Assembly (NCBI RefSeq): GCF_002741055.1
Contig: NZ_CP016809.1
Span: 2,254,501 to 2,318,500 of the forward strand
DNA from: Paenibacillus ihbetae
Lineage (GTDB): Bacteria > Bacillota > Bacilli > Paenibacillales > Paenibacillaceae
Direction: 5' to 3'
Length of the DNA: 64,000 bases
Both the position numbers and the translations under genes were made by a program. Positions 1 through 21,621 of this stretch are shown here, piece after piece. Every line of letters begins with the position of its first letter. Position 1 is the stretch's first letter. The notes below the pieces were generated by a model. It saw only the letters and a program-made list of their open reading frames with translations. It did not search any database and had not been told where the DNA came from.

Positions 1-101
1 TCGTCCAAGCGTCGACGCTTTAGCATCATGCAGCAGTCATCATTACACCGCGCGCCGGGAGAGGCAGCGGCGAGACCGCTATTTCCGCTAAAAGCCATCG
101 G

Positions 102-5391: not shown

Positions 5392-5472
5392 TCGATTGGA
5401 ACTTAATTCTTAAATATCCATATTTATTTTGTACTATATAGAGAATAGTAACTTGATTAGGATGGGATTACT

Positions 5473-5769: not shown

Positions 5770-5879
5770 GAACCTCTCCCACACATTAGGAAAGCAAATA
5801 CCGATTGCTGATTTACGTTCTAATTGTTATGTGTCCAATTGGTTTAATAGCATTAGGTTAAACACTTGGAGCACAACCA

Positions 5880-5914
5880 AAAAGCCGGATTCCTGGAAGG
5901 GGAATCCGGCTTTT
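5880..5914. terminator. Bidirectional intrinsic terminator
   Basis: Perfect 14-bp stem AAAAGCCGGATTCC (5880-5893) and GGAATCCGGCTTTT (5901-5914) with a 7-nt loop; A and T runs at the stem ends serve both directions. It separates the rightward small membrane gene from the leftward ilvA. Confidence 0.85.
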
Positions 5915-5944
5915 CAATGTGGGCGCAAGTCAACGCTTCGCACT

Positions 5945-6070
5945 TACAAGTTCCAAAAATGGACTGGTTCACGGGATTTCACGCCGCGACGCACCAACAA
6001 GTCCTCAAAAGGGACTTGTTTGCGGAATCTCCCGCCGCTAAGCACTTACAAGTCCCAAAAGGGACTGGTT
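5945..6070. repeat. Three-copy palindromic repeat array, 51-bp period
   Basis: The motif ACAAGTCC..AAAAGGGACTTGT or a close variant begins at 5946, 5997 and 6048, exactly 51 nt apart. Between copies lie related GGTTCACGGGA and CGCCGC segments. The middle copy is a near-perfect hairpin; the outer copies end in GGACTGG. The same motif and period recur at 36613-36738. Confidence 0.75.
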
Positions 6071-6164
6071 CACGGGAATACGCCGCTGGCACGCCAGCGG
6101 TCACCTTCCCCGCTCCGTCAAGCCCACTTTTTCAACGCGTGGCCTCCGTTTTTCCGCACCCCAA

Positions 6165-7442
6165 TCAGATCAGCAGGTTGAACAAGTTCATGTTCTTGTT
6201 CAGCTCGGTATAGTCAAGACCCTTGCGCTGCATCCGCTCGATGAGAGGGCCGTAATCCTCAGGTCGCAGCAGCTCGATGCCTACCAGCGCAGGCCCGTTC
6301 TCCTTGTTGTGCTTCTTCGTATATTCAAACCGGGCGATGTCGTCGTCCGGGCCGAGCACCTCTTCGAGGAACTCGCGCAGAGCCCCTGCACGCTGCGGGA
6401 AATTAATCATGAAGTAATGCTTCAGCCCTTCATAGATCAGGGAGCGCTCCTTGATCTCCTGCATCCGGTCGATGTCATTGTTGCCGCCACTGATGATGCA
6501 CACAACAGTTTTGCCGCGAATCTTATCCCGGTTCAAGTCCAGTGCAGCCACCGCCAGCGAGCCGGCAGGCTCAACTACGATTGCATTCTCGTTGTACAGC
6601 TCCAGGATGGTTGTGCAGGCTTTCCCCTCCGGTACCATCACGATGTCGTCCACCAGCTCATTGCAAATATCATAGGTCAGCTGCCCGACGCGCTTAACCG
6701 CAGCTCCATCCACAAACTTGTCGATTTCATCCATCGTGACAACCTCGCCCTGCTTCTTCGACTCCAGCATGGAGGCCGCGCCAAGCGGCTCAACACCGAT
6801 GACTTGGGTCGCAGGACTTACCGTTTTCACATAGGTTGCCACCCCGGCCGCAAGTCCGCCGCCGCCGATCGTCACAAATACATAATCAGCCGGAGCATCA
6901 AGGTCCTCCATGACCTCCATGCCGATCGTCCCGTTCCCGGCGATAATCTTCGCTTCGTCAAACGGATGGATAAAGGCCATTCCATGCTCCTCGCAAGCCT
7001 TAATCGCTTCATGATAGGCATCATCAAACGTATCCCCCGTTAAAATCACCTCGACGCTGTCCCCGCCGAAACGCTTCACCTGCTTCACCTTCTGGTTCGG
7101 GGTGGTGCTTGGCATGTAAATCTTGCCCTTGATGTTCAACGCATTGCATGAGAACGCCACGCCCTGGGCGTGATTGCCGGCACTGGCGCATACGATGCCA
7201 GCACGGCGTTCCTCATCGGACAAGCTGCGAATCATATTGTAAGCGCCCCGGATCTTGAATGACCGGACCACCTGCAGATCCTCCCGCTTCAAATACACAT
7301 CGCAATCATATTTGGCTGATAATACGGCATCCCGCTGCAGCGGGGTGCGGACGATCACTTCGCGAAGCACATGGTGCGCACGTACGATATCTTCCATGCT
7401 GACGGCTTTGCGCTCAGCTTGCAATTCCTTCACTTCTCTCAC
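6165..7442 (-). CDS. ilvA: Threonine ammonia-lyase (threonine dehydratase), biosynthetic
   Basis: 425 residues; converts threonine to 2-oxobutanoate and ammonia, the first step of isoleucine synthesis, in the cytoplasm. The PLP lysine is K63 in VRSFKIRGAYN, and the phosphate-binding glycine loop is GGGGLAAG near residue 200. The C-terminal 90 residues are an ACT-like regulatory domain (MINFPQRAGALREFLEEVLG), the site of isoleucine feedback in the family. Length fits the Bacillus-type enzyme (about 420). The frame opens with GTG at 7442; a GTG at 7433 with GGAG 8 nt upstream may be the true start. The gene stands alone here, without the rest of the ilv-leu operon. No T-box was visible upstream. 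Confidence 0.93.
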   Translation of the reverse strand: MREVKELQAERKAVSMEDIVRAHHVLREVIVRTPLQRDAVLSAKYDCDVYLKREDLQVVRSFKIRGAYNMIRSLSDEERRAGIVCASAGNHAQGVAFSCNALNIKGKIYMPSTTPNQKVKQVKRFGGDSVEVILTGDTFDDAYHEAIKACEEHGMAFIHPFDEAKIIAGNGTIGMEVMEDLDAPADYVFVTIGGGGLAAGVATYVKTVSPATQVIGVEPLGAASMLESKKQGEVVTMDEIDKFVDGAAVKRVGQLTYDICNELVDDIVMVPEGKACTTILELYNENAIVVEPAGSLAVAALDLNRDKIRGKTVVCIISGGNNDIDRMQEIKERSLIYEGLKHYFMINFPQRAGALREFLEEVLGPDDDIARFEYTKKHNKENGPALVGIELLRPEDYGPLIERMQRKGLDYTELNKNMNLFNLLI

Positions 7443-7743
7443 TCCACTTCACCGTCCGGGCGGCAAAATCGCCTTTATCTCTACCCTTGAACTTTTTTAT
7501 TTCTCCTATTGTAACACTTTTCATCGTAATTTCTCGGGTCATTTTACACGAATTTAAGCCCGGAATCCGCTCCTCCCTCTAATAGTATCCATCGGAAAAA
7601 CAAGAGACGCCTAACTCGTTGGCTAACCAGCCATTTGGATCACCCGCAAACGCACGATTCTGACCTAAGCGAAAAACAAAGTGAACGAAATGCAAACAAT
7701 CACTTTCAATCACCATTTCTCCAGACACCGATGACTTCCCAAA
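7443..7743. other. ilvA upstream region
   Basis: No gene recognised. A TACAAT that could act as a -10 for ilvA lies near 7513-7518 on the minus strand, without a convincing -35. A short leftward frame at 7579-7827 has no ribosome site or recognisable protein. Confidence 0.4.
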
Positions 7744-7771
7744 CAAAAAAGGCCGGCGTGTTCTCCAGCCT
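7744..7771 (-). terminator. Terminator of the uronate-oligosaccharide locus
   Basis: On the minus strand AGGCTGG and CCGGCCT (7750-7771) form a GC-rich hairpin with one G-U pair, followed directly by six T residues. It lies about 125 nt beyond the stop of the DUF2264 gene, the last gene of the leftward locus. Confidence 0.7.
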
Positions 7772-7894
7772 GATCCGTTTTTTGCAGGTAAGGTAAACCT
7801 CATCCGTACTGTAAAATAAACCGCCAAGAGGCGATAGGCCTGTTTCCCCTGTTAGATACGCTGCCGTAATCTGGCTTCTGCAAAGACGCTGCGC

Positions 7895-9925
7895 CTAATC
7901 CATCGTGATCGTAATCGGGGTTCCGGACAGAGAAGTGATAATAATGTTCCCCTGCCCGATGCGTACCCCAAGCTTCTCCGCGGCAGCCTGACCGGCACCT
8001 TGATCAGCACCTTCACCCAACGAGAAACGTCGCTGCTGTGAAGCAGGATCATTGCCGGCCATAACCGCCGAATCGACACCTTTAATGCTCGAAACAAGGC
8101 AGGCTTGGCTTGATGTCGATCGTATCCCCCGCGGTTTTCCGTATACTGCTGAAACCAGCCAATGGGTACCGGGATCAAGCCTTGCTCTTAACGTTGGAAT
8201 GACGGTGCGTGGATGCAGCAGATTCGTGTTCGCCTGCGGATAGATCAGCTCAGCTGCGTCATAACCGAGCAGGCCGTGCACAGAGCTTGCTCCCCAGACG
8301 GTAGAAGCCGCAGCCCTTCGGCCTTCGACGTCAGCTCCGCCGCCTTCGGCCACCCCCACACCATGGTCGCCCAGCCCTAAGGCAAAACCTCCCTCTGCCG
8401 CCTCCAGCGTCCTTTCGGTATGAATCCGATGAATCCGAATATGCCAAGGCAGTCCCGCCACCAGCCAGGTACGGACGTCCACGTTCGCCCATGGCTTCCA
8501 TCCGACATACAACACCTGATCCCGAATCCATGCTTCCTCGCACGTTCGCTTCACCCTGAACAGTTGATCTCCTTCGCTGAGGGCGAGCATGGAATCGAAG
8601 GCGCCTTGGGAAAGCCCCCACTCAGCCCGCGGTACGCTGAACGCAAAGGCGGTTGAGTAGGCGAACTTCTCGTACTTGGCCGACGTGTGCGTATGCTCAT
8701 TGGAGGATAAGTGCCCCGTATTAAAAGCTGCCGCATGACCGGTCTCCGGCTCCCGGCAGACGACCAGATGCGCGGGCTCTTGCACCGAGATAGTCTTAAG
8801 CGCCGGAAGCTCCTCTTCCTCCGCTGCCCAGAACGGGTCGTCTTCTGCCAATGCAAGTACGAGGAAGGTTTTTAGCGCCCAGTAAGAGGAGCCCGGTGAA
8901 TTATAATTTTCGGACATAATTTGATTCGGGTAGGCATACCCAATCGTTAGAATGCCGCCGCGGTCAAAGATTGGTTGCCGGAACCACCATCGCAGATTTC
9001 TAAGCACCAGGCCCTTGAGCTCGCCCGGCTTGAACCCAGCCATGCCTGCGAACGCCGCAGCCGACCAGAAAGCGGATTGCGCGAACCGGTAGGTCAGGCT
9101 CCGGCCGTAGGGGATGGCGGCACCGTCCGGCGCATGCCAATAGACAAAGTCCGAGGCAAAGGCAGCGGCCCGCTCCAGATACCGCTCGGCGCGCTTCGGG
9201 TCCTCTTTTGCCATGAGCCGGGCATAGACCAGGCCATAATAATGGATCGCAAAAGGCCCGTAGTAATCGCAGTGTCCACCGATACCGTCACTGTACCACC
9301 CGCCTGACAGATAGAATTCGTCGATCCGGTTCAGGTTTCGTTCCACCTGCTCCTCATCGTAAGGAAGGCCCGCCTTTCGGAAGCCGATGTTGACCAGCAC
9401 GTTGAAGAACAGCCAGTTGCAGTCGTAACAAGGATGCCGGTTGATTTGATTCAGCCATTGATACAGGTTGGATTGCTCCTGCTCGTTCAGCGGATGCCAG
9501 ATCCGGTCCGGCACGAGAGCCAGCGCCAAACCGAAGACAGCCATCTCGACAAGCCGCTGATCATAATCGGCGACGTCTCCCCAATACTCCTTATGTTCCG
9601 GATCGGTGCCTGCGCGGATGCCGTCCAGGCACCGTTCCCACAGCTCCTCATGGCTGCCGCCGGCAATGGCTGGAACAAGCCCCCAGAGCACCCTGGAGAA
9701 GCCCTCCATTTCCGCGACATTCGCCGAATAGCCGGTGCCCGTGCTCCCGATGGACAGTCTCGCATGCCCTTTGCTGTAATACGGCTGCAAGGGTGCAAGT
9801 AGCTCGCCGAGAGCACGGTACATATCCTGCCGGCTCTTCAGCGGATTCCGCGCAACAGGGTGCAGGCCAGCGCCGGCTGCAGGCCAGTTCGTCCTATCTA
9901 TACTCCTATTTCCTTGAAGACTCAT
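7895..9925 (-). CDS. DUF2264 family protein, putative glycan-processing enzyme
   Basis: 676 residues without signal peptide or membrane segment. The N-terminal two thirds match my recollection of DUF2264: NPLKSRQDMYRALGELLAPLQPYYS, then helical repeats rich in Trp and Tyr (FSRVLWGLVPAIAGG; WLNQINRHPCYDCNWLFFNV; YSDGIGGHCDYYGPFAIHYYGL), reminiscent of an alpha/alpha-toroid glycosidase or lyase fold. The last 250 residues are probably a beta-sandwich. It ends a locus with a GH88 hydrolase and a heparinase II/III enzyme, so action on an oligosaccharide is likely, but the reaction is unknown to me. GGAG lies 11 nt before the ATG. A 330-nt GC-rich gap separates it from the GH88 gene. Confidence 0.82.
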   Translation of the reverse strand: MSLQGNRSIDRTNWPAAGAGLHPVARNPLKSRQDMYRALGELLAPLQPYYSKGHARLSIGSTGTGYSANVAEMEGFSRVLWGLVPAIAGGSHEELWERCLDGIRAGTDPEHKEYWGDVADYDQRLVEMAVFGLALALVPDRIWHPLNEQEQSNLYQWLNQINRHPCYDCNWLFFNVLVNIGFRKAGLPYDEEQVERNLNRIDEFYLSGGWYSDGIGGHCDYYGPFAIHYYGLVYARLMAKEDPKRAERYLERAAAFASDFVYWHAPDGAAIPYGRSLTYRFAQSAFWSAAAFAGMAGFKPGELKGLVLRNLRWWFRQPIFDRGGILTIGYAYPNQIMSENYNSPGSSYWALKTFLVLALAEDDPFWAAEEEELPALKTISVQEPAHLVVCREPETGHAAAFNTGHLSSNEHTHTSAKYEKFAYSTAFAFSVPRAEWGLSQGAFDSMLALSEGDQLFRVKRTCEEAWIRDQVLYVGWKPWANVDVRTWLVAGLPWHIRIHRIHTERTLEAAEGGFALGLGDHGVGVAEGGGADVEGRRAAASTVWGASSVHGLLGYDAAELIYPQANTNLLHPRTVIPTLRARLDPGTHWLVSAVYGKPRGIRSTSSQACLVSSIKGVDSAVMAGNDPASQQRRFSLGEGADQGAGQAAAEKLGVRIGQGNIIITSLSGTPITITMD

Positions 9926-10258
9926 TTTGCTTCACGCTCCTTCGCCAAGCTTCAACTTTCCGGGCCCGGGACATATGGCCGGGCGGCATTCCGTGCTTCG
10001 AACCATACATCATATCGGCGGCCGCTCTGGCCATGCAGCTGCGGACACGCAGTATGCAGACACGCATCGTGCCCGAACCCGTGACATGCCGGGTCACTCC
10101 ATACAGGACCATGCATCTTAACGGACACGCAACATGCGAGCCTCGCACCCCGACGATCACACCATGCCAACAGGAAGCCGTACGCACGCCCGGCGCGCGG
10201 TGTAATGATGACTGCTGCACAATGATCAGCGTCGACGCTCGGACGACAAGCCATATGA
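9926..10258. other. GC-rich gap between GH88 and DUF2264 genes
   Basis: No gene recognised. The stretch is dense in CATGC, GCATG and ACACGCA words (for example CGGACACGCA twice, near 10042 and 10120), which suggests low-grade internal duplication. No promoter or terminator is evident, so read-through from the GH88 gene is assumed. Confidence 0.4.
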
Positions 10259-11395
10259 CTACTCCCAATAAAACGGACCCTGTCCCTGGAGCCGTGCCAG
10301 GCCTTCCACAAAGAAGTAGTCCCCATAGATCAGCGGCACGTCGATGTTGCGCCCCTCCGGCACATGACTCGTGCCGTGGAGGATCAAGCCCTCCTCGTTC
10401 TCGTCGTCCCAAGCGCCATAGTTTCGGTACAGCGATTCAAGAATTTGCTGAGCCGGTGCACGGTAGGCGGAAGCCTCCACGCCCCCCGCCTTCTCCGCGA
10501 GCAGCAGCAGACCGCTGGCCGCGCACGCGCCGGCGGAAGAGTCGCGGTAAATCCTCGCTTCATCCGGTGCCCGGAAATCCCAGTACGGCACATGATCCTC
10601 CGGCAGATTCGCGAGGAAGAAATGCGCAACCGTCTTCGCCGTATCCAGATAAATTTGCTTTCCGCTATGGTGATAGGCCAGCGTCAGGCCGTACAGCGCC
10701 CAGGCTGTCCCCCGGGACCAGGCCGATTCCGGCGCGTAGCCTTGCCCTCCGAGGCCTTCGAGGCGTTCGCCGGTTGCCGGATCATACCGGATAATATGAT
10801 AGACCGACCCATCTGGACGGACGAAGTCCCGGACGACCGTATCCATATGCGCCTCCGCCACATGCCGGTACCGCGGATCTCCGCTGATCTCGGAAGCCAG
10901 GAACAACAGCGGGGTGTTCATCGAGCAGTCGATAATCGCCAGCCCGGCGTTGTCCTCCCCTTCTCTCCACGGGTTCCACGCCCGGATGTACCGGCCCTTA
11001 ATATTAAAACGCGCGGCCAAATAATTCGCCGCCTTCAGCGCCCGAATCTTCGAGGTCTCGTTTCCGGTCAGCTTATAGGACGCCATGCTGGTCAGCGTCC
11101 ACATAAAACCGAGATCATGATCCAGCCGCACGTAATCGTTCAGCACGTCATCCAGCCGCTGTTCGCAGGCTTCGGCAGCAGCGCGCAGCTCCTCATCCCT
11201 GCTGCCGTTGTACAGCAGCCACAGCATGCCCGGCCAGAAGCCGGCCGTCCACCAGTGCGGCGCCTCCAGCCCGTACGTTCCGTTCTGGCTTGCATGCGGG
11301 AAGCCGTCTCCGATGCGCTTGACGTTCCGCTGCGTCTTCGCCAGTGCCTTCATCCATGCTTCCGTCTTCCAATCCAATGCCGCTTCCGTCTTCAT
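10259..11395 (-). CDS. GH88 unsaturated glucuronyl/uronyl hydrolase
   Basis: 378 residues, no signal peptide. Glycoside hydrolase family 88 removes the 4,5-unsaturated uronic acid that polysaccharide lyases leave at the non-reducing end, by hydrating the double bond. The alpha6/alpha6-barrel signature is clear: HWWTAGFWPGMLWLLY, LDHDLGFMW (D94 is equivalent to D88 of Bacillus sp. GL1 UGL), IIDCSMNTPLL (D156, equivalent to D149) and GYAPESAWSRGTAWALYGL. The ATG at 11395 has AAGGAG 8 nt upstream; the GTG two codons earlier is too close to it. It lies between the heparinase-like and DUF2264 genes, consistent with a cytoplasmic chain from imported oligosaccharide to monosaccharides. Substrate is not readable. 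Confidence 0.92.
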   Translation of the reverse strand: MKTEAALDWKTEAWMKALAKTQRNVKRIGDGFPHASQNGTYGLEAPHWWTAGFWPGMLWLLYNGSRDEELRAAAEACEQRLDDVLNDYVRLDHDLGFMWTLTSMASYKLTGNETSKIRALKAANYLAARFNIKGRYIRAWNPWREGEDNAGLAIIDCSMNTPLLFLASEISGDPRYRHVAEAHMDTVVRDFVRPDGSVYHIIRYDPATGERLEGLGGQGYAPESAWSRGTAWALYGLTLAYHHSGKQIYLDTAKTVAHFFLANLPEDHVPYWDFRAPDEARIYRDSSAGACAASGLLLLAEKAGGVEASAYRAPAQQILESLYRNYGAWDDENEEGLILHGTSHVPEGRNIDVPLIYGDYFFVEGLARLQGQGPFYWE

Positions 11396-11421
11396 CTTCA
11401 CTACTCCTTCGCGTATTTGAT

Positions 11422-13245
11422 TTAAATGAATCGAAACTCGAACGCCAGCGTCATGAACGCTTCGGGCTGCTTCGGCTCAAAATCGATCGCATACCACAAC
11501 GCCTCCTTGCCGTAATGGTCGCGGTACGAACGTGCCTGAACACTGGCCGTCAGCCGACCTTCGTCATACCGGATGACCAGTCCGCTTTTCCCGTTGCCGC
11601 TTCTCAGAACGACAGCATGCTCCCCGTCCAGAACCCGGATATCCGGCTTTATCCGGGTAACGATCCGCTCAAGCAGACTGTCCGGCGGCCGGTTGAAGCG
11701 ATACTCGTCGATGACGGTCAGCTCGGGCTGCGGCCCCCGTTTGTTCCATACCATCGTCCGTATGAGTCCAAGCAGCTCGGGTTCGCGATATGCCTTCGTC
11801 AAATCGAGCCGCAGCCGATCCTCTTCCGTTTCTATCGACACCTCCAGCACGATCGCCTCGCTGTCCGGCCCCTCACTCTGCCCCCGGCCGTTGATCACCG
11901 GCACGGAATGCCCCTGGGAACCGTTGCAATCGTAGCCGTACCGCCCTTCGCCGAAGTAGTCGGCCGTATATTCCCCGCTTCCGAGATCTGAGCACCATAC
12001 CTCCCCCGCACCGTACAGGATGAAATGCCCGAGATCGTTATGATTGTGAGGCTCGTCATTTCGTCCTCCCTTAGCGGCGAACCCGTATCGATCATGACCG
12101 GAAGCGACCCGGGAAATGAGCCACTGGGCGTCCTCCAAATAATAGTCGGCCGCCCCCCACTCTTTTCCCGTTCTCCCGGGATCCAGCCAGATGAGGTTCC
12201 GCAGGGCCGGTGCCCAGCGGCTGCAATGATCCTCCCGATACCCCGCCGAAAGGGAGAGGGGCGGAGATTCGAACGCCTCATAGATTCCCGCTAAGTAATG
12301 GGACAAGCCGGTCTGGACGGCAGCCTGCGGCTGGGAATCGGAGAAGTTTGCGACCGCCCCGCCGCCAAGGAAGCATTTCTGCTGAAACAAAGCGATTTGC
12401 GAGACCTTCTCCTCCCGGAGCCAGTCAATCGCTCCCCGGCTGCGTTTGCGCAGCAGATCGGCATAATAAACGAAATAGCCGAAGCCGTAATTCCAGTAGC
12501 CGAGCCCCTCCAGGCAGGCACCATCTGCTCCGAAGCCCTCAAGATAGCAAGCCATGCTCGATTCCGTACGCTTCAGGATTTGGGTAAGCCGCTCCGAATC
12601 CTGCATGAGCAGCAGCGCGGCAGAACCGACAGAGCCCGCACATACGGCGGCCCAATTGTGAGTCGCCGTCTCCCGGCCGTGCATGTGATCCAGAAAAGGC
12701 TCGAACAGCCGCTCGTTCACTTCGTCAGCAATCCTTGAACGCAGAAGCGGCGGCAGCATGTCGCCAAGCAGCAGGCGGATTTCACTCAAGGAGAATCCGG
12801 TCTCGGCGCTGAACAAATCGATGGTTTCTCGGATTTTCTCGGATGAAGAGGCATCCACATGGGCGGGCAGGCACCATGTAAATTCGTCGCATATTGCCCA
12901 CAGAATATCGTGCAGAGCAATCTGATAATCCTCCCGCTCCGGGTAAAGAAGCGACAGAAGCGCGAATGTGTTCATTCTCCGTCTGCGCTCGAAGTAGACC
13001 CGCTCATATTCGAGCCTCGTCCCTTGCCGTTCGAACAACGCGAACAATCCGTAGGTCACCTGGGGGATCGACTCCTGGGACAAGCGCATGCCTTCCTCTT
13101 CGATCTCCCGGAGCGCGCTCCGGTATGCCGGATGGCTCAGGACGCCTTGCCAGAAGCATCGCTGATCACCGCCCGGATAATAGAGCCCCAGGTCCGCCGG
13201 GGCCATCCTGCGAACGATTGAACCAAGCTCCCGATTCTGCTCCAT
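11422..13245 (-). CDS. Heparinase II/III-family protein, cytoplasmic
   Basis: 607 residues. The N-terminal half is an alpha/alpha-toroid; the C-terminal half carries the heparinase II/III-like beta-sandwich (GFAAKGGRNDEPHNHNDLGHFILYGAGEVW, then DLGSGEYTADYF). The paired His and Asn in PHNHNDLGHF are the recognisable core of that domain. Relatives eliminate uronate bonds in heparin, alginate or related chains, giving unsaturated ends that GH88 enzymes then take. There is no signal peptide, so an oligosaccharide lyase acting inside the cell is likely. GGAGGT lies 10 nt before the ATG. The gene sits between the response regulator and GH88 in one leftward series. Substrate unknown. Confidence 0.88.
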   Translation of the reverse strand: MEQNRELGSIVRRMAPADLGLYYPGGDQRCFWQGVLSHPAYRSALREIEEEGMRLSQESIPQVTYGLFALFERQGTRLEYERVYFERRRRMNTFALLSLLYPEREDYQIALHDILWAICDEFTWCLPAHVDASSSEKIRETIDLFSAETGFSLSEIRLLLGDMLPPLLRSRIADEVNERLFEPFLDHMHGRETATHNWAAVCAGSVGSAALLLMQDSERLTQILKRTESSMACYLEGFGADGACLEGLGYWNYGFGYFVYYADLLRKRSRGAIDWLREEKVSQIALFQQKCFLGGGAVANFSDSQPQAAVQTGLSHYLAGIYEAFESPPLSLSAGYREDHCSRWAPALRNLIWLDPGRTGKEWGAADYYLEDAQWLISRVASGHDRYGFAAKGGRNDEPHNHNDLGHFILYGAGEVWCSDLGSGEYTADYFGEGRYGYDCNGSQGHSVPVINGRGQSEGPDSEAIVLEVSIETEEDRLRLDLTKAYREPELLGLIRTMVWNKRGPQPELTVIDEYRFNRPPDSLLERIVTRIKPDIRVLDGEHAVVLRSGNGKSGLVIRYDEGRLTASVQARSYRDHYGKEALWYAIDFEPKQPEAFMTLAFEFRFI

Positions 13246-13283
13246 GGTTACGTTCCACCTCCAATTTTCATCCAGCTTTCTTC

Positions 13284-13322
13284 AAACGCTCAAAACGCTC
13301 AAAACGCTCAAACGCTCAAGCG
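13284..13322 (-). repeat. Short tandem repeat GAGCGTTT(T) at the end of the regulator gene
   Basis: Four to five units of GAGCGTTTT or GAGCGTTT on the minus strand run through the last codons of the YesN-like regulator gene and its 3' flank. Each unit contains TGA across its boundary, so slippage would change little of the protein. Probably replication slippage. Confidence 0.7.
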
Positions 13323-14942
13323 GCTCCGATACTCCACCGGGGTTACCCCGGCATGGGACTTAAACGTCTTCGTGAAATGGCTTACATTATCATAGCCGAG
13401 GCTCTCGCATATTTCCCCGACGGTATGGTCGGTGCGCAGCAGTTGTTCCTTCGCGCGCTCCATCTTCATTCGGGTGACATACTCAATGAAGGTGATCCCC
13501 GTCTCCTTCCGGAACATCCGGCTGAAATAGCTTGGATTCAGATGCAAGAAGCCCGCAACCTCATCAAGCGAGATCCGCTGATCCAATCGAAGGGACACAT
13601 ACCTGCATGCCTCGGCGACCTCGGTTCTTCGGCTTCCTCCCCATCCGCTGCCGGCCTCGCGCGCCGTCGATACGAGATACGCCTTCAGCCAGACATGCAG
13701 CTCGCTCAAGGCATCCATGCCCATCATCTCTTTATGCAGCGCATCGGCCGCATAGGCCTGCGGAATGGATGGCAGCAGATGGAGCCTCAGCTTCAGCTTG
13801 AGATCAAGCATGAGCTTAAGGAGCCAATCCTTGACGGCTTCGGGCGCATACTCGGCTTCGCGGATGCGGGAGATCCACCGGTCCGCCGGGTCCTCATCGC
13901 CGGGCCCGGCTTTGCCTAGCAGCATCTCCAGCAGTTCCCGGCTGGCCTGCTCGTAGTAATCGTACAGGCCGGAGGCGCTGCCTATTTCAGCGCCGTGCTG
14001 CTTCGGCTTGATCTTCTCAACCGCCCCGGGCTCCATGTAGAACCGCTGTCGCTCGCTGCCCAGCAGCTCCCCGAGGCCCAGCTTCAGCGACTGAGGGCTG
14101 TCGCAGCCGGTGCCGATGATGAAGGACATGCGGATCTTCAGGATCCGGCATAGCGTGGCCTGCACTTGCCTTAAGCAGGCTGCAACCTCATCGTAAACGT
14201 TATGTCTGAGGCCGGGGCGGTAGGAGAACAGCAGCAGCAAGCATCTGGCATCATAACGGATATGCACGGCCTCCGGCTTCAGGCTCCCCAGCACTTCCCG
14301 CAGCACATTCCCGAGGGCGAAATGGAGCGTCTGCTCCGAAGCGAAGCGCTGCTTGATCTGCCTAAGCTCCTCCAGATAGCCGATCACGGGAAGGCAGTGA
14401 TCATTCCCCCGGAGCACGCCGATGTCCGCCAGCTCGTGCCGCCATTTGTCCGGGGAGAGGAGCGGCTGCTGCACGAAATTCCTCATGCGCTGCTCCCACC
14501 GCAGCTCTTGGGCTTCGGAAGCCAGATGCCGCATCCGGCTCTTCTCCCAGCCCTGCTCAGCCTCCACATCCATCGCCTGCTTGAACCGCAGAAGCAGCCG
14601 GGCGAGCTCGCTCGGGTCCAGCGTTTCCTTCAACAGATAATCCTGGATGCTTAGCCGCATCGCCTGCTGCGCATAATGGAATTCGCTGTGGCAGGACAGT
14701 ATGGCGATACGCACATCCGGCTTCACCTCGCGAATCCTTCCCGACAGCTCCAATCCGTTCATTTTCGGCATGCCGATATCCGTGATCAGAATGTCCGGAG
14801 GCTGCGTCTTGGCAAACTCCCAGGCGCTTAACCCGTTGTCGTAGCTTCCCATCAGCCGAAGGCCCATCTCCTCCCACGGTATCGTCTCCGACAGCAGCTC
14901 GATTACCGGATAATCGTCATCGACCAGCATCACGTTATACAT
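13308..14942 (-). CDS. YesN-like AraC-type response regulator of the uronate locus
   Basis: 544 residues. Receiver domain 1-120 with phosphoacceptor D55 in DILITDIGMP; a long helical middle region; two AraC helix-turn-helix motifs at the C terminus (ISLDEVAGFLHLNPSYFSRMFRKETG and TVGEICESLGYDNVSHFTKTFK). It overlaps the kinase gene by 8 nt. The ATG at 14942 is preferred because AGAGGGA is 6 nt upstream, whereas the ATG two codons earlier abuts it. Such pairs normally sense an oligosaccharide outside the cell and activate the adjacent ABC transporter and hydrolase genes. Its target promoter is probably the one before 20294. Confidence 0.92.
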   Translation of the reverse strand: MYNVMLVDDDYPVIELLSETIPWEEMGLRLMGSYDNGLSAWEFAKTQPPDILITDIGMPKMNGLELSGRIREVKPDVRIAILSCHSEFHYAQQAMRLSIQDYLLKETLDPSELARLLLRFKQAMDVEAEQGWEKSRMRHLASEAQELRWEQRMRNFVQQPLLSPDKWRHELADIGVLRGNDHCLPVIGYLEELRQIKQRFASEQTLHFALGNVLREVLGSLKPEAVHIRYDARCLLLLFSYRPGLRHNVYDEVAACLRQVQATLCRILKIRMSFIIGTGCDSPQSLKLGLGELLGSERQRFYMEPGAVEKIKPKQHGAEIGSASGLYDYYEQASRELLEMLLGKAGPGDEDPADRWISRIREAEYAPEAVKDWLLKLMLDLKLKLRLHLLPSIPQAYAADALHKEMMGMDALSELHVWLKAYLVSTAREAGSGWGGSRRTEVAEACRYVSLRLDQRISLDEVAGFLHLNPSYFSRMFRKETGITFIEYVTRMKMERAKEQLLRTDHTVGEICESLGYDNVSHFTKTFKSHAGVTPVEYRSRLSV

Positions 14943-17016
14943 CGGCATTCCCTCTTTCCGGTATATACATTTCGATCACCGTCCCTTGACCCTCTTCGCT
15001 GTAGACGGCGCATTGAAACTCGGAACCAAACACCATCCGCATCCGTTCCATCACGTTGGACAGGCCGATGCCGGAAAAGCCGCTCCCCGGCGCATCCTTG
15101 GGAGACGAAGAGCAAAGCGCTTGAGAATCCGAACCCGCATCCGAACCGGGACCCGAACCGGCCATATTCCCGCCGGCAGCCCCGGAAGAACCTGCAGTTA
15201 CCGTACGATCTCCCGGCGCTGTTTGCCCTTGCGCCTGGAAGCTTTCATGGGCGGCCGACCTCGGCGTACCCCGTAAGGCATCCTCCGCTGCAGCAGTAGC
15301 ATCGTCCGCGCTTAGGCGCAAGCAACGGGCGACCCGTTCCCGCACGGAAGGGTCCATGCCGGCACCGTCATCCTTCACGCGCAGGATGATGCCCCCCGGC
15401 TCCACCACAGCCGTGATCGAGATGACCCCTGCCCGCCGGTTCAGCCCGTGGATGAGCGCATTCTCGACGATCGGCTGCAGGAAGAAGCGGGGCACCTTCA
15501 GCAGCAGAGCCTCCGAAGCGATATCAAGCTCCAGCCTGACCTCCTCCTTCTGACGAAGATTCATGAGCGCCAGATAATGAGAGATCAGCTCAAGCTCTTC
15601 ATGGAGGGCGATCTCATCCTCCTGCCGGCTGATCGTCATCCGGAGCAGCATCGACAGCGAGCCGATCATCCTGGCGCTTTCCGGATCCCCCCGCTTCATG
15701 ACCTTCATCCGGATCGAATTCAGCACATTGAACAGAAAATGCGGATGAATCTGCGCCTGCAGCATTTTCAGCTCAGCCTTTCGTTTTCTCGATTGATTGT
15801 CGGAAATTTCGAAAATCATGGTCTGGATGCGGCTCAGCATATCGTCGAACAGATGGCCCAGGCGCCCGATTTCGTCGTTGCCCCGAACATGCGAGCGCAC
15901 CTCCAGGTTTCCCCGCTGAACAGCAGCAGCCGCCTTGCCGAGCCGGACCAAGGGTTTCGTAAACGTACGTACAAGTCCGATCAGCAGCATGAGAAAGACC
16001 AGAAAGGAGCCCATTTGAAACAGAAACGCGCGGCTAAAAATCGCATTGATATTAACGATCGCATCCTTATAAGGCTGCATCAGCACCAGCCGCCAGCCGG
16101 CAAAAGGGATATCCTGCTCCACCATTAAATGCTTTTCGCCGTCCATCGGCATGATCGCGTAAGGAGCCGATCCGCTCCATTCCTCCACGTACGGAAACTT
16201 CGTACCGATACGTTCAGGATGATGGGAGGATACCACCGTGCCGCTGCCATCCAGCATCAGCACGTCGCTCCCTTCGGACAGCGAGTCGAAGATCCGGCTG
16301 ATTTGATCCTCCGTAAAGCTTACGATGACATACCCGTAGATATCCGAATCCGGAAGCCGGAGCGTTCGAACCACGGACAGCTGATACGGATGATCCATCC
16401 GGTCGGAGCGAAATACCGTCTCCTCGGGTCCAACCCAGAGCGACTCCAGCCCCTGAAGCCGGTGGATCCGGTCGAACCAGGGCTGGTCCATATAATCAGG
16501 CGGATTGTAATCGCTTACGGAATAGTTCATGTAATAGGCGCCATTGGTCAGCAGCACCGTGACATAGCTGGGCTCGCCTACGACCGTCAAGCTTTCGATA
16601 TGCTCCAGCACACGGCGGGATTCCACGAACCGATCGTATGGATCGGATTCCTCATTGCCGGAGGCGACCTGTTTGAAATACGAGTTCAACGTGGAATTCA
16701 CCTGAATATAATTGGCGATATTCAGCTTGCTTGAGAGCAGATTCGTCACCGAGCCGCGGATCAGCTGGAGCGCGTCATTCGCATTCTGTACGGCCTGCTC
16801 CTTCAAAGCCTCCTTCGTCATCGCATTGTAGAGTATTAAGCTGACGAGTGCCGGCACCGCGATGCAGGCAACCGACGCCCAGATCAGCTTATGGCGGATG
16901 GAGCTCGGCACCCACCTCTTCAGCCGGGTCAACATGTCCTTCACCCCGAGATCCTCAAACTTTCTGTTGATGCCAAGAAGGGACGAAGATTTCGCCCCTT
17001 TGGTTTTTTCTGTCAT
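14935..17016 (-). CDS. YesM-like sensor histidine kinase with long insertion in the ATP lid
   Basis: 693 residues. One membrane segment near 45-65, an extracellular dCache-like sensor (about 70-310), a second segment near 325-345, HAMP (about 350-400), His_kinase with H424 in IHPHFLFNVLNSI, and a HATPase domain with N box (PIVENALIHGL) and DDGAGMD. About 76 residues rich in Ala, Gly, Ser and Pro (roughly 569-644) interrupt the domain before GFSGIGLSNVMERM; YesM relatives usually have a short loop there. The ATG at 17016 has no good ribosome site; the ATG at 16935 with GGGGTG upstream is a serious alternative. It follows the binding-protein gene by 9 nt and overlaps the regulator gene. Confidence 0.9.
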   Translation of the reverse strand: MTEKTKGAKSSSLLGINRKFEDLGVKDMLTRLKRWVPSSIRHKLIWASVACIAVPALVSLILYNAMTKEALKEQAVQNANDALQLIRGSVTNLLSSKLNIANYIQVNSTLNSYFKQVASGNEESDPYDRFVESRRVLEHIESLTVVGEPSYVTVLLTNGAYYMNYSVSDYNPPDYMDQPWFDRIHRLQGLESLWVGPEETVFRSDRMDHPYQLSVVRTLRLPDSDIYGYVIVSFTEDQISRIFDSLSEGSDVLMLDGSGTVVSSHHPERIGTKFPYVEEWSGSAPYAIMPMDGEKHLMVEQDIPFAGWRLVLMQPYKDAIVNINAIFSRAFLFQMGSFLVFLMLLIGLVRTFTKPLVRLGKAAAAVQRGNLEVRSHVRGNDEIGRLGHLFDDMLSRIQTMIFEISDNQSRKRKAELKMLQAQIHPHFLFNVLNSIRMKVMKRGDPESARMIGSLSMLLRMTISRQEDEIALHEELELISHYLALMNLRQKEEVRLELDIASEALLLKVPRFFLQPIVENALIHGLNRRAGVISITAVVEPGGIILRVKDDGAGMDPSVRERVARCLRLSADDATAAAEDALRGTPRSAAHESFQAQGQTAPGDRTVTAGSSGAAGGNMAGSGPGSDAGSDSQALCSSSPKDAPGSGFSGIGLSNVMERMRMVFGSEFQCAVYSEEGQGTVIEMYIPERGNADV

Positions 17017-17025
17017 TATATCAGA

Positions 17026-18396
17026 TCATTTTTGGTTGGATTCGATAATTTTGTTCACGCGTTCCTGGGAATTACGGATCGTCTGATCGATATCTTGATT
17101 TCCGAGAATGAGCTTCTCGTACTCCTCGTTAATCGCCTCATAGACCTCGGCTTGATACGGAGCCGGCGGAACGATGGCGGAAGCCTTGGAAGCAACCAGG
17201 GTATCGACGAGCGATTTCTTGTCGACCTTCTCCGGACTTTTCGTTCCGGCGAGAATGGTGTCGATGATTTCCTCGACCTGCTCGCTCTTGACGCCCTGCC
17301 ATGCCGGAATGTTCTTGCCTTGGACAACCTGACCTTCGGTCGTGTACCAGCGGACGAACTTGTAAGCCTCCTCCTTATGCTTGGACTTGGCGGCAACAGC
17401 CACGTAGTCGGTCGTTACCGGCGTAAGTCCGGTCGGATCGCCCTCCTTGTTTTTCGGGAACGGGGCGACGGCGACCTCGAACTCCAGGGGCACTTTATCG
17501 GTTCCTCCGATCTCCGTGTTCATCCAGCTGCCGATCGTGATCATGCTCGCCGATTGATTGAAGAATTGGGTCCGGTAATTCAGCTTCTGCGAAATCATGT
17601 CCGTGTACGGCACGGAGGATTGATCCTCCTTCTCCATGCGCACCCGAAGCTCCAGCGTCTCGCGGAAGGTCGGGTTATCCAGATTGGAGGTGCCGTCGGC
17701 TTTCAAAAAGTCGGTGTCCTGCGGCTGGTTCGCCATTTTGAGCTTCAGAAACTCCAGCCAACCGCCGCCTTGCGGCCCGTGAAAATACGTTCCGTAACGC
17801 TTGGCCGATCCCTCGCCTTGGGTCAGCTTTTTCGCGTAATCCGCATAGTCGTCCCAAGTCCAGTCGGTCGGAACGGCAAGCCCCGCCTCCTTAAGATGGT
17901 CCTTGTTCAACAGGACGTACCACGGATTGAATTTGCCGGGAAGCGCATACACTTTTCCGTCCAGCCGGGTGTCGACCTTGTAGTCCTCCTCCACGCTGAA
18001 GCCGTCCTTGGCAATATATTCATCCAGCGGCTCCGCCATCCCAAGCGCCACCCGCTGGGCATAACCGGCCGGGTCGCTGAACATGAGGATGTCCATCTGC
18101 GCCGACGATGCCGCTTCGAGATCCAGCTTCTTGAACGCCTCCTGGGTATCCCCCTTCTCGCTGAGCTGGACGAGCTCGATCGTCACGCCGGGCGTCTTCG
18201 CCTCATATGCCGCCAGCGTCTCCTTCCAATTGTAAGCTTCCTCTGTGCCGTACGTATACAATCTGAGATTCATCTTGCCGCCCTCTTGCCCGCTCTCTCC
18301 CTGCGCCGTTTGCTCCTTCGCGCCGCCGCACCCGGACAGCAGCCCGATCAGCAGGGTGCCGGCCAGCAAGCCGGCTTGCCATTTCTTATTCAACAT
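17026..18396 (-). CDS. Sugar ABC transporter lipoprotein binding protein
   Basis: 456 residues. Lipoprotein signal with lipobox LLSGC (Cys23), then a family-1 extracellular solute-binding protein (LRLYTYGTEEAYNWKETLAAYEAKTPGVTIELVQLSE; later PVTTDYVAVAAKSKHKEEAYKFVRWYTTEGQ). It would hold an oligosaccharide outside the cell and deliver it to the permeases encoded just upstream. I start it at the ATG at 18396, with GGGGAGG 10 nt upstream, rather than the upstream in-frame start at 18423. It follows the second permease by about 85 nt. No ATPase gene is present, so a shared MsmX-type ATPase elsewhere is likely. Confidence 0.92.
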   Translation of the reverse strand: MLNKKWQAGLLAGTLLIGLLSGCGGAKEQTAQGESGQEGGKMNLRLYTYGTEEAYNWKETLAAYEAKTPGVTIELVQLSEKGDTQEAFKKLDLEAASSAQMDILMFSDPAGYAQRVALGMAEPLDEYIAKDGFSVEEDYKVDTRLDGKVYALPGKFNPWYVLLNKDHLKEAGLAVPTDWTWDDYADYAKKLTQGEGSAKRYGTYFHGPQGGGWLEFLKLKMANQPQDTDFLKADGTSNLDNPTFRETLELRVRMEKEDQSSVPYTDMISQKLNYRTQFFNQSASMITIGSWMNTEIGGTDKVPLEFEVAVAPFPKNKEGDPTGLTPVTTDYVAVAAKSKHKEEAYKFVRWYTTEGQVVQGKNIPAWQGVKSEQVEEIIDTILAGTKSPEKVDKKSLVDTLVASKASAIVPPAPYQAEVYEAINEEYEKLILGNQDIDQTIRNSQERVNKIIESNQK

Positions 18397-18481
18397 TCGA
18401 TTGCAACCTCCCCATGTTTTCAATTGAATCCCGTGATGATGGGTCGAGCTGTTGATGTATTGCAGGCCGGCCGATTCGGCC

Positions 18482-19321
18482 TTAGCCCTTGACGCCTCCT
18501 AAAGCAATGCCTTCAATGACGCTTTTCTGCCCGATGATGAACACGATGAGCAGCGGGAAAATCGCCGAGACCGCAGCAGCCATGATCAGGGAATAGAATT
18601 CGCCGCTTAATGACGTGAATTTCTGCATCGCCAGCGGAATGGTGAACAGCCCGTCGGTGCGCAGGAAAATCAGCGGATTCTGGTAGTCGTTCCATGTCCA
18701 GATAAACCGGAGAATGGCGTAGGTTGCAACGGCGGGCTTGACCAGCGGCAGCGCGATCGACCAGAAAATGCGCGGATGGCTGCCTCCGTCGATTTTTGCG
18801 GATTCGATAAACTCCTGGTGCACGCCCATGAAAAATTGCCGCAGCATAAACGTTCCCAGCACGCTGAAGCTGCCGAGCACGATCAAGCCGAAATGGTTAT
18901 CGAACAGACCGATATTGCGATACAGAATAAACTGCGGAATGAGGATCGCCTGACCCGGAATCATATAGGTGAAAAGTACGATCAGAAACAGCCATTTTCC
19001 TGCGGCGAACTGGATTTTCGAGAAGCCGTAGGCCGCCAGCGCCGACACCAGCGCCGAAATCGCGGTGGTCAGCAGGCTGACCTTGATCGAGTTCCAGTAG
19101 TAGAGGTAGAACGGGTAATCGCCGAACCACACTTCCTTGTAATTCTCAATGGCGTTCCATTCCCTCGGGATCCATTGGATCGGGAAAACGAAGACATCCT
19201 TTTCCACCTTGAAGGAAGTGATGAGCATCCAGACAAAAGGGAGCAGGAACAGGATGCTGACCGCGAACATGACCGCCGTCACGAACGCCTTGCGCCAGTC
19301 GGCCCGAAGCAGCGTGTGCAT
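18482..19321 (-). CDS. Sugar ABC transporter permease, MalG/YtcP type
   Basis: 279 residues with six predicted membrane helices. The cytoplasmic EAA loop that contacts the ATPase is ESAKIDGGSHPRIFWSIALPLVKPAVAT (about 185-212). The ribosome site is a long GAGGAGGAGG before the ATG. The gene follows the first permease by 16 nt and precedes the binding protein, so the three form the importer of the locus. Family assignment to carbohydrate uptake (CUT1 type) is firm; substrate inferred from the neighbouring uronate enzymes. Confidence 0.93.
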   Translation of the reverse strand: MHTLLRADWRKAFVTAVMFAVSILFLLPFVWMLITSFKVEKDVFVFPIQWIPREWNAIENYKEVWFGDYPFYLYYWNSIKVSLLTTAISALVSALAAYGFSKIQFAAGKWLFLIVLFTYMIPGQAILIPQFILYRNIGLFDNHFGLIVLGSFSVLGTFMLRQFFMGVHQEFIESAKIDGGSHPRIFWSIALPLVKPAVATYAILRFIWTWNDYQNPLIFLRTDGLFTIPLAMQKFTSLSGEFYSLIMAAAVSAIFPLLIVFIIGQKSVIEGIALGGVKG

Positions 19322-19337
19322 GGTTTCCTCCTCCTCT

Positions 19338-20294
19338 CTAGTAGTTGACCCATTTCTTCTGGGCCGCCCACTGCCCGAGCGTGATCAGCATGACGAAGCC
19401 GAACAGCACGGCTGCTATGGACGATGCATACCCAACCTTCAGATTCACAAACGCCGTGTCGTACAAATACCAGACCATCATCGTTGTCGATCCGATCGGC
19501 CCGCCCTGGGTCATGACGGCGATAATGTCGAACACCTTGAAGGTCGAGATGATTCCCGTCACGAGCAGGAAAAAGGATGTCGGCGACAGCAGCGGCAGCG
19601 TAATCCGCCTGAATTTCGTCCATCCATTCGCCCCGTCAATCTCGGCAGCCTCGTACAGGTCCTTCGGTATGGATTGCAGGCCGGCGATGTAGATAATCAG
19701 ATTGAACCCGATCGAGATCCACACCGAGATCATCATGATCGATACGAGCGCATAGTTCGGATCGGCGATCCATTTCGGCGGATTCGCGATGCCGATACTT
19801 CGCAGCACCTCGTTAATCGGGCCGTAGGAAGGCTGGAACAGCACCTGCCATACGACCGCAACCGCGACGATGTTCGAAATGTAAGGCATGAAGTAAGCGA
19901 CCTTGAAGTATCCCTTCATGTACACATGCCGGTCGATCAGGATCGCAAGCGCCATGGAGATGATCATGTAGATCGGAACCGTCAGCAGAAAGATCATGTT
20001 GTTTCGGATGGATTTTAAGAAGATATCATCCTCAAGGAGACTGCGGAAGTTTTGCAGTCCGACCCACCGGATACCGTCCCAGCCCTGCACGAAATTCCAA
20101 TCGGCGAAGCCGAGCACCAGCGTTGCGATAATCGGGAACAGAACCAGAATCATGACGCCGATCAGCATCGGACTGATAAAAACCATTCCCCATAGCTGCT
20201 CTCCCCGCCGGAGACTTCTTCCGAAGCCCCTGCGCCTGCTGGTGCCGGCCTCGCGCAGGCCCGGAGGAGGCATGCTTTTCATTGTGCGTGCCAT
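19338..20294 (-). CDS. Sugar ABC transporter permease, MalF/UgpA type
   Basis: 318 residues, six membrane helices after a basic cytoplasmic N terminus of about 35 residues (RRRGFGRSLRRGEQ). The EAA loop is EAAEIDGANGWTKFRRITLPLLSP. GAGGTGG precedes the ATG. It is the first gene of the leftward eight-gene locus; the short space before it carries TATACT next to a hairpin that probably ends the preceding esterase gene. Forms the channel with the MalG-type partner. Confidence 0.93.
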   Translation of the reverse strand: MARTMKSMPPPGLREAGTSRRRGFGRSLRRGEQLWGMVFISPMLIGVMILVLFPIIATLVLGFADWNFVQGWDGIRWVGLQNFRSLLEDDIFLKSIRNNMIFLLTVPIYMIISMALAILIDRHVYMKGYFKVAYFMPYISNIVAVAVVWQVLFQPSYGPINEVLRSIGIANPPKWIADPNYALVSIMMISVWISIGFNLIIYIAGLQSIPKDLYEAAEIDGANGWTKFRRITLPLLSPTSFFLLVTGIISTFKVFDIIAVMTQGGPIGSTTMMVWYLYDTAFVNLKVGYASSIAAVLFGFVMLITLGQWAAQKKWVNY

Positions 20295-20335
20295 GTCTGA
20301 CCACCTCGATTGTTTCGGATGGTTTCAGTATAAAA

Positions 20336-20365
20336 AAAATACCGTCAACGCATTGACGGTATTTT
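20336..20365 (-). terminator. Terminator after the esterase gene, at the head of the uronate locus
   Basis: Perfect 13-bp stem AAAATACCGTCAA (20336-20348) and TTGACGGTATTTT (20353-20365), 4-nt loop. On the minus strand it runs into eight T residues, so it works as an intrinsic terminator for the gene ending at 20401. The following TATACT (near 20326-20331) may be the -10 of the sugar locus. Confidence 0.8.
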
Positions 20366-20400
20366 GATCAGATTCCCTTTAATTTTTACCTTTGCTTCCC

Positions 20401-21015
20401 TTACAGGAATTTCTCCTTAAACCACGAGGACGCCATGCCGACCTCGGACCGGCTCAGCTGATGGCCGCCGTTCTCCCAGTACAGCTTCACGTCGGCGCCC
20501 GCTCCGCTCAGGAGCTCATTCAGATCCTCCGTCTCCTGCGGAAGACAGATCGGATCGCGCCGTCCTGCCGCAATGAACACCGGCACGCCGCTCAAATCGG
20601 GCAGCGTTTTGCCGCGGAGCGGAACCATCGGGTGATGGAGGATTGCCCCTTGCAGTGCATCCCCCCGGTGGAAGAGCAGGCTGGCCGCGATATTGGCGCC
20701 ATTGGAGTAACCGATGGCCACGATTCGGCTGCGGTCGAATTCATACTTCTCCGCCGCCCAGTCCAGGAACGCATGGAGCTCCTGCGTCCGTTGTACGAGA
20801 TCCTCCACGTCAAAGACGCCTTCGGCCAGACGCCGGAAAAATCTCGGCATCCCGTTCTCCAGCACATTCCCGCGGACGCCCAGCACGTTCGACGCCGGCG
20901 ACACCATCTCGGCCAGCGGCAGCAAATCCTCCTCGTTTCCCCCGGTGCCGTGCAGCAGCAGCAGGGTCGGCGCCTCGGCGGACGTGCCCTTCCGATAAAT
21001 ATGTTGATGCTCCAT
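20401..21015 (-). CDS. MhqD-like alpha/beta hydrolase (carboxylesterase family)
   Basis: 204 residues, cytoplasmic. Alpha/beta-hydrolase of the phospholipase/carboxylesterase family: oxyanion region LLLHGTGGNEEDLL, nucleophile Ser in GYSNGAN, acid in AAGRRDPI, His in NGGHQL. MhqD of B. subtilis, of the same family and size, is induced by quinones through MhqR. Here the promoter (21109-21136) carries an MhqR-like palindrome, which supports this relationship. I start at the ATG at 21015 (AAAGGAG 9 nt upstream), eight codons inside the longest frame. Substrate unknown. Confidence 0.88.
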   Translation of the reverse strand: MEHQHIYRKGTSAEAPTLLLLHGTGGNEEDLLPLAEMVSPASNVLGVRGNVLENGMPRFFRRLAEGVFDVEDLVQRTQELHAFLDWAAEKYEFDRSRIVAIGYSNGANIAASLLFHRGDALQGAILHHPMVPLRGKTLPDLSGVPVFIAAGRRDPICLPQETEDLNELLSGAGADVKLYWENGGHQLSRSEVGMASSWFKEKFL

Positions 21016-21081
21016 ATGACAAATCTCCTTTCGGTCCATTCAGCTTATTTTCATAGAATACCCATAAAGCATTTGCTAATT

Positions 21082-21136
21082 ATCTTTAATTTAAGATTCT
21101 TTAATTACATCATACCATGGATTTCATGAATTTCAA
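21082..21136 (-). promoter_or_regulatory. Promoter and MhqR-like operator of the esterase gene
   Basis: Minus-strand TTGAAA (21131-21136), 16-nt spacer, TATGAT (21109-21114). Just downstream, over the expected transcription start, is the near-perfect palindrome ATCTTTAATTTAAGAT (21082-21097). It has the ATCT..AATT..AGAT frame I recall for the MhqR site ATCTCGAATTCGAGAT. Assignment to an MhqR-type regulator is inference. Confidence 0.6.
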
Positions 21137-21174
21137 GTGCGAAATGGACTTGAGGAAGGTCAGGCTAACTTGAT

Positions 21175-21516
21175 TCAATGGCTGCGATTCTTCTCTCCCC
21201 ACTCGCATAATCCTTCCAATACCGGTAATAGCGTTTCCGCCTTAGCAGTAAGACTATACTCGACTTTAGGCGGAACCTGAGGATACTCCTTCCGGTTCAC
21301 CAAACCGTCCGCCTCCAGTTCCTTTAGCTGGGAGCTCAAGGTTTTATAAGTAATCGCTCCTATTTGCCTTTTTAGATCATTGAACCGGACCGGTTGGTTT
21401 TCTGCCAGAAGGTAAATAATAACCATTTTCCATTTGCCGCCAATCACCGACAAGGTGTAACCAAATGGTGTGTCTTGGATATGCTTCACCTTGCCTTTAT
21501 ATTCAGCCATGCTCAT
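21175..21516 (-). CDS. HxlR-family transcriptional regulator
   Basis: 113 residues, winged-helix of the HxlR (DUF24) family: TLSVIGGKWKMVIIYLLAENQPVRFNDLKRQIGAITYKTLSSQLKELEADGLV. I start at the ATG at 21516 (AAAGGA 10 nt upstream); the longer frame runs into the promoter region. The conserved Cys near the N terminus that YodB, CatR and HypR use for redox sensing is not present (HIQDTPFGYTL), so it may sense something other than thiol-reactive compounds. Divergent from the arginase-fold gene with 105 nt between starts, so it probably regulates that gene and itself. Confidence 0.9.
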   Translation of the reverse strand: MSMAEYKGKVKHIQDTPFGYTLSVIGGKWKMVIIYLLAENQPVRFNDLKRQIGAITYKTLSSQLKELEADGLVNRKEYPQVPPKVEYSLTAKAETLLPVLEGLCEWGEKNRSH

Positions 21517-21535
21517 CTTCACACTATCCTTTCGG

Positions 21536-21609
21536 GTAGTACCTATCAAATTTGTGCGTACTACATTTTTATTTGTGCTCATTTTATACTTGCTTTACTT
21601 TGAAGTAAA
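21536..21609. promoter_or_regulatory. Divergent HxlR/arginase-like control region
   Basis: Two dyads: GTAGTAC (21536-21542) with GTACTAC (21558-21564), and a perfect TTTACTT-TG-AAGTAAA (21594-21609) whose core TACT..AGTA resembles sites of HxlR proteins such as YodB. The second dyad overlaps the ribosome site of the rightward gene. TATACT at 21585-21590 may be the rightward -10. Confidence 0.55.
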
Positions 21610-21621
21610 GGAGATAAAAAC

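Follow-up and report, generated by a model that had tools for sequence, protein, structure and literature searches.

Organization of the locus

Eight consecutive genes, all on the minus strand at positions 7895-20294 of a 64-kb stretch of the Paenibacillus ihbetae genome ("the window"), quite probably form a catabolic operon for imported oligosaccharides containing glucuronic acid (GlcA), which employs a lyase, a GH154-type dehydratase and a GH88 enzyme. The genes are transcribed in the order permease A, permease B, binding protein, YesM, YesN, lyase, GH88 and DUF2264, and both their coordinates and their Pfam families agree with an initial annotation that had described eight genes in succession on one strand. 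Its reading of the locus as an operon for uronate-oligosaccharide uptake is likewise supported. A binding protein and two permeases (SBP_bac_1 and BPD_transp_1, respectively) are encoded with the three enzymes. ABC below stands for ATP-binding cassette.

7895..9925, minus: DUF2264, putative GH154-type uronate dehydratase, long two-domain form, 676 aa (Pfam; sequence and predicted-fold matches in the PDB)
10259..11401, minus: GH88, putative unsaturated glucuronyl hydrolase, 380 aa (40.5% identity to 1vd5)
11422..13245, minus: PL33-like lyase of heparinase II/III fold, no signal peptide, 607 aa
13308..14948, minus: YesN-type response regulator, 546 aa (Pfam Response_reg and AraC-type HTH, that is, receiver and helix-turn-helix)
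14935..17016, minus: YesM-type sensor histidine kinase, 693 aa (Pfam dCache, HAMP, His_kinase, HATPase)
17026..18423, minus: sugar-type ABC solute-binding protein with hydrophobic N-terminus, 465 aa (Pfam SBP_bac_1; hydropathy)
18482..19321, minus: ABC permease B, 279 aa (Pfam BPD_transp_1)
19338..20294, minus: ABC permease A, 318 aa, transcribed first (Pfam BPD_transp_1)
20336..20365, minus: terminator-like hairpin upstream of the operon (13-pair stem and T-run; pattern match only)

Every one of the eight proteins scores above a curated Pfam cut-off (for the enzymes, DUF2264 440 bits, DUF2264_C 153, Glyco_hydro_88 33.6 and Hepar_II_III_C 28.3), while the NCBIfam scan assigned no family to the three enzymes. 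Adjacent genes are separated by 9-62 bp or share 14 bp, and only the interval between GH88 and DUF2264 is longer, at 333 bp.

The three enzymes

The DUF2264 protein, which occurs once in the genome, had been described in the initial annotation as an enzyme with no assigned reaction, a description that is rejected here. Its sequence matches the solved structures 8oi4 (E 7e-28), 9o4u (E 6e-27) and 9nwf (E 4e-26), and its predicted fold, which that annotation had proposed as a check, matches the same three structures closely enough to place it in the family by fold as well. By sequence and predicted fold it is thus a member of GH154, whose solved relatives 9o4u and 9nwf include a characterised beta-D-glucuronate dehydratase (PMC12269599). 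The proposed catalytic residues Y229, R285 and Y289, in the numbering of the Bacteroides dehydratase BcGDH, are kept in the window protein, in all long-type proteins (78/78, window included) and in all 45 of the short type, and nine of the ten residues whose alanine mutants inactivate BcGDH are kept in the window. The name "DUF2264" was not found in the openly licensed literature searched, so that a name search alone would mislead.

Two further features distinguish members of the family. Residues 175-176 adjoin the mobile active-site loop of BcGDH and are DC in all 50 long-type genes with a lyase in the region; where the region has no lyase (n=27 long-type), they read PN in 20, DC in 4 and otherwise in 3. 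The pattern may hint at two specificities, and it is only a hint because the split follows clades. In the C-terminal domain, a motif at residues 405-424 (window 8654-8713) contains H413, constant in 77 of the 78 long-type proteins, and K417, Y418, K420, F421, Y423 and S424, constant in all 78; this motif may reach the active site. The one-domain BcGDH does not have the domain that carries it.

Structural alignment of the complete long DUF2264 model by Foldseek extends to PL33, PL35, PL8, PL12 and other lyases, at template-modelling (TM) scores of 0.27-0.52 by either length and root-mean-square deviations of 8-15 A. Profile comparison of DUF2264 with the lyase gives probabilities of 0.1% for the C-terminal domains, 0.5% for the full length and 1.3% for the N-terminal domains, against 0.15-2.0% in reversed and swapped controls. 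Common ancestry of the two C-terminal domains was therefore set aside as a lead only, the Foldseek alignment having no profile support.

The GH88 protein is 40.5% identical over 363 columns to 1vd5, the unsaturated glucuronyl hydrolase (UGL) of Bacillus sp. GL1, and it keeps all eight active-site residues checked. These residues (D88, D149, H193, Q211, R221, W42, H87 and W225, of which D88 and D149, in GL1 UGL numbering, are the catalytic pair) are kept in 85/85 GH88 sequences, window included. The expectation that GH88 acts on unsaturated uronyl ends is supported. The S-x-x-S-x-K of streptococcal UGL (reference 2zzr), a 6-sulfate-binding motif, is not found in the window GH88, which reads H346-x-x-E349-x-R351 at that place. 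The genome contains 12 GH88-family matches.

Among the lyase families with solved structures, PL33 is the one closest to the window lyase. Its predicted fold agrees over 570 residues with the PL33 structures of BtPL33HA and BcPL33HA (8r6z-8r75; PMC11848413), and the catalytic set N238, Y291 and H444 is kept in 55/55 lyases, including that of the window (N197, Y250, H400); a PL35 sequence compared with them also has the N, Y and H. Unlike BtPL33HA and BcPL33HA, however, the window lyase does not keep W224 and has no signal peptide, and it is only about 25% identical to 8r73. At the position of W242 it has V, which is described as the PL33_2 state (PMC11848413) and is also found in PL35.

The sole criterion for signal peptides was hydropathy: the highest mean over 11 residues within the N-terminal 45, counted from the longest possible start, with a threshold of 1.9. 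The maxima are 0.75 for DUF2264, -0.09 for GH88, 0.56 for the lyase and 2.51 for the binding protein. With the window included, values of at least 1.9 occur in 3% of long DUF2264 proteins (n=78), 5% of GH88 (n=85), 0% of lyases (n=56) and 97% of 32 binding proteins; without the window, they occur in 9% of 45 short DUF2264 proteins and 90% of 10 second-type binding proteins. The three enzymes thus appear to be cytoplasmic, as had been proposed from their missing signal peptides, and the binding protein has a hydrophobic N-terminus, with relatives likewise.

Conservation of the neighbourhood

Fifty named loci were found by DUF2264 similarity; separately, 100 Paenibacillus genomes were surveyed and 93 regions fetched. 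Among the named loci, 36 have lyase and GH88 in view, 4 have GH88 without lyase, 3 have lyase without GH88 and 7 have neither; in one of the 36 (L050; regions are given as L numbers), GH88 lies on the opposite strand. Of the named relatives found, Paenibacillus lactis DSM 15596 is closest, its DUF2264 protein being 91% identical. In the 93 regions, GH88 lies within 3 kb on the same strand in 76 of 78 long-type cases, and 51 of these 76 genes, but not the other 25, also have a lyase within 6 kb. Short-type genes are accompanied by GH88 in 38 of 45 cases, and after clustering at 80% identity the pairing is found in 26 of 27 long clusters and 3 of 7 short ones, compared with a rough chance of 0.8% computed from the 12 GH88 matches of the window's own genome. 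These counts bear out the proposal that DUF2264 works with GH88; gene order would have spoken against it had DUF2264 never been accompanied by GH88 or heparinase-like genes, which across the genus is clearly not the case. The association of the long form with GH88 is strong within Paenibacillus, becomes loose outside it and is not universal.

Three layouts can be distinguished, of which layout A is that of the window. In layout B the importer or the regulators are different, an AraC regulator is encoded, and lyase and GH88 are flanked by two DUF2264 genes, one short and one long. A GH59 catalytic domain with an SLH (S-layer-type) tail is encoded close to the importer of this layout in 15 of the 93 regions, an architecture defined by Pfam on one full-length case, L108. 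The protein in question (L108:1888-8547) has 2220 aa and also contains Ig-like domains. Layout C combines GH88 with a DUF2264 protein less than 54% identical to that of the window and has no PL33-like lyase (23 regions: L098, L128, L139, L140, L143-L161); in 16 of these an A-type importer and YesM/YesN lie directly upstream. This does not imply a total lack of lyases in such loci. In 5 of the 23 (L152, L140, L143, L147, L154) a right-handed beta-helix protein that may be a lyase is encoded near GH88, its gene forming a two-gene cassette with that of a 358-aa protein (L152:17158-19901); in L156 a rhamnogalacturonan-lyase family 11 gene (4528-6360) lies upstream of the DUF2264-GH88 pair; and the scan covered a minority of the genes in these loci.

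Proposed pathway and its relation to known systems

From the genes, predicted folds, residues and neighbourhoods observed, we infer activities, substrate and regulation as follows. The binding protein and the two permeases would import oligosaccharides, with an ATPase presumably encoded elsewhere, and YesM/YesN would sense these oligosaccharides and switch the operon on. In the cytoplasm, the PL33-like lyase would act by beta-elimination at 4-O-substituted GlcA, leaving a 4,5-unsaturated uronyl end, and DUF2264 would produce the same end by dehydrating a saturated terminal GlcA, which loses its C4 hydroxyl and C5 hydrogen as water. GH88 would then release 5-keto-4-deoxyuronate from both kinds of unsaturated end by hydrolysis. 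Its further conversion may fall to a KduI-type enzyme encoded outside the locus; the genome has two KduI-family matches.

The chemistry and each of the enzyme families are already published, and the operon is a new example of known chemistry, although no Paenibacillus operon of this kind was found described in the openly licensed literature. Among the closest parallels is BcPUL25 of Bacteroides caccae, which comprises BcPL35, BcGH88, BcGDH and BcGH109 (PMC12269599); here too a heparinase-fold lyase, a GH88 and a GH154-type dehydratase with kept active-site residues are encoded together. The window locus differs from BcPUL25 in its ABC importer, its YesM/YesN pair and its enzymes without signal peptides, in a lyase nearer PL33 than PL35, in having no GH109-like family among its eight genes (Pfam), and in the C-terminal domain of its dehydratase, a domain that is also predicted for BT3677 (PMC12269599). 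The same paper already notes, from STRING, the co-location of the GH154-type family with GH88 or GH105. Haloarchaeal loci for glycosaminoglycans (GAGs) combine a GAG lyase, GH88, GH154 and an ABC oligosaccharide transporter, and resemble the window in ABC uptake and in GH88 and GH154 enzymes listed as cytoplasmic, but they have an extracellular GAG lyase (PL8 in the table) and a sulfatase, neither of which is among the window's eight genes (PMC13260240). In ulvan breakdown, the P29_PDnc dehydratase similarly dehydrates the saturated uronate terminus and thereby makes it accessible to GH105, an unsaturated-uronyl hydrolase (PMC8511951); ulvan is sulfated, however, and P29_PDnc is unrelated in sequence to BcGDH (PMC12269599).

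Evidence against the proposal and rival explanations

Several observations weigh against the proposed pathway. At position 176 the window protein has C, where BcGDH has an N whose replacement by alanine abolishes activity; since another family member, 8oi4, carries T, the position is no family constant. Because of the 333-bp gap, co-transcription of DUF2264 with the other genes is not certain. Only 3 of 7 short-form clusters in the genus have GH88. In the wider order, where DUF2264 occurs in 92 of 149 genomes and 23 of 38 genera, GH88 lies within 3 kb on the same strand in only 22 of 40 DUF2264 regions of other genera and a lyase is found in 11 of 40; a model built from the window genome's other GH88/GH105 proteins named no further neighbour in the regions outside the genus, and a strict tie of DUF2264 to GH88 is rejected there. 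Some DUF2264 genes instead adjoin a gene of GH95, GH31 (L163), GH38 (L166) or a rhamnogalacturonan-lyase family. Part of the DUF2264 family may serve other glycans, because GH95 lies beside short DUF2264 genes without GH88 (L216:11047-13404, L223:11181-13553).

A further point against the pathway is that two GH154 members had been reported as glycosidases, a report disputed in PMC12269599. DUF2264 could accordingly be a true glycoside hydrolase, a beta-glucuronidase or beta-galactosidase as GH154 was first described, acting independently of GH88; 8oi4 was deposited as a GH154 beta-galactosidase, and beta-galactosidase families lie near some relatives. We regard this as very improbable, since after further purification no glycosidase activity was seen, BcGDH and BT_3677 proved to be dehydratases and the active site is not glycosidase-like (PMC12269599). 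The window protein keeps the dehydratase residues, and hydrolysis of saturated GlcA would bring nothing to GH88, a near-constant neighbour in the genus that acts on unsaturated ends.

Of the candidate substrates in the initial annotation (GAGs, ulvan, xanthan, gellan and plant uronans), sulfated GAG seems the least likely. An operon for chondroitin, hyaluronan or heparosan would fit the enzyme triad of BcPUL25 (PMC12269599), and the PL33 enzymes with characterised activity use GAGs or gellan as substrate (PMC11848413). It is nevertheless unlikely, because by Pfam none of the eight genes belongs to a hexosaminidase or sulfatase family, all seven sulfatase-family matches of the genome fall outside the window, and the scanned neighbours in a sample of relatives include beta-galactosidase families but no hexosaminidase. 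The H-x-x-E-x-R of GH88 counts only against a sulfated GAG, for which, with the 6-sulfate-binding motif and a window sulfatase both missing, there is no support. An operon for gellan or a xanthan-type exopolysaccharide, which is suggested by the nearest characterised GH88, 1vd5 of Bacillus sp. GL1, is a still less likely candidate. One PL33_2 enzyme cleaves gellan (PMC11848413) and the window lyase shares the V of that subfamily, but so does PL35; no alpha-rhamnosidase or beta-glucosidase family was found among the scanned neighbours in the sample of relatives; and a lyase that appears cytoplasmic could cut only imported fragments.

In some relatives galactosidase-type families accompany the genes, which points to GlcA on beta-galactosides, as in arabinogalactan, gum or pectic galactan side chains, more than to GAG. 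Of these families, GH42, GH53 and GH59 act on beta-galactose, and GH2 is mixed. GH42 lies next to the A-type importer in L040 and L043, a LacZ-type GH2 is found in L024 and L053 (the latter without GH88 or lyase in view), and GH53 with SLH domains adjoins long DUF2264 at L142:3109-6624 (Pfam) and L107:6804-10274 (tblastn), where neither GH88 nor a PL33-like lyase is in view. Elsewhere in the P. ihbetae genome there are nine GH42-family matches and one weak GH59-family match. Such families appear, however, in only a minority of regions and not in the window, and other DUF2264 regions carry GH95, GH31, GH38 or rhamnogalacturonan-lyase family 11.

A broader scheme, which we consider unlikely as a whole, is that Paenibacillus and its kin operate a "convergent funnel", in which the PL33-like lyase and the long (often also the short) DUF2264 would convert differently capped GlcA (4-O-glycosylated, with free 4-OH, perhaps 4-O-methylated) to one unsaturated end for a single GH88, while loci without the PL33-like lyase would use dehydratase and GH88 as a two-enzyme substitute for a beta-glucuronidase on GlcA-capped plant glycans, including beta-galactans. 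Loci without a PL33-like lyase offer a natural test of this two-step bypass, and these layouts and those with two dehydratases are the most worth bench testing. The DUF2264 genes found in 79 of 100 genomes of this large soil genus can now be named as probable uronate dehydratases, and the chemistry of dehydratase plus GH88 would extend from gut Bacteroides to Gram-positive, ABC-fed operons.

Other features of the region

The P. ihbetae genome is a single contig of 6.59 Mb. The 13-pair hairpin and T-run (20365-20336) lie between the operon and the next upstream gene (20401-21039), which the hairpin probably ends; terminator-like sites in the region are at chance level (13 found, 12.2 expected), and no Rfam match reached the gathering threshold across 7000-21700. 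The gap between GH88 and DUF2264 contains a 66-bp repeat (10187-10252, minus strand), missing from the corresponding gap in P. lactis and no more stable when folded as RNA than its shuffles. It is a dispersed element with 26 further genomic matches of 78-98% identity, including one at the left edge of the window (1-59, plus strand).
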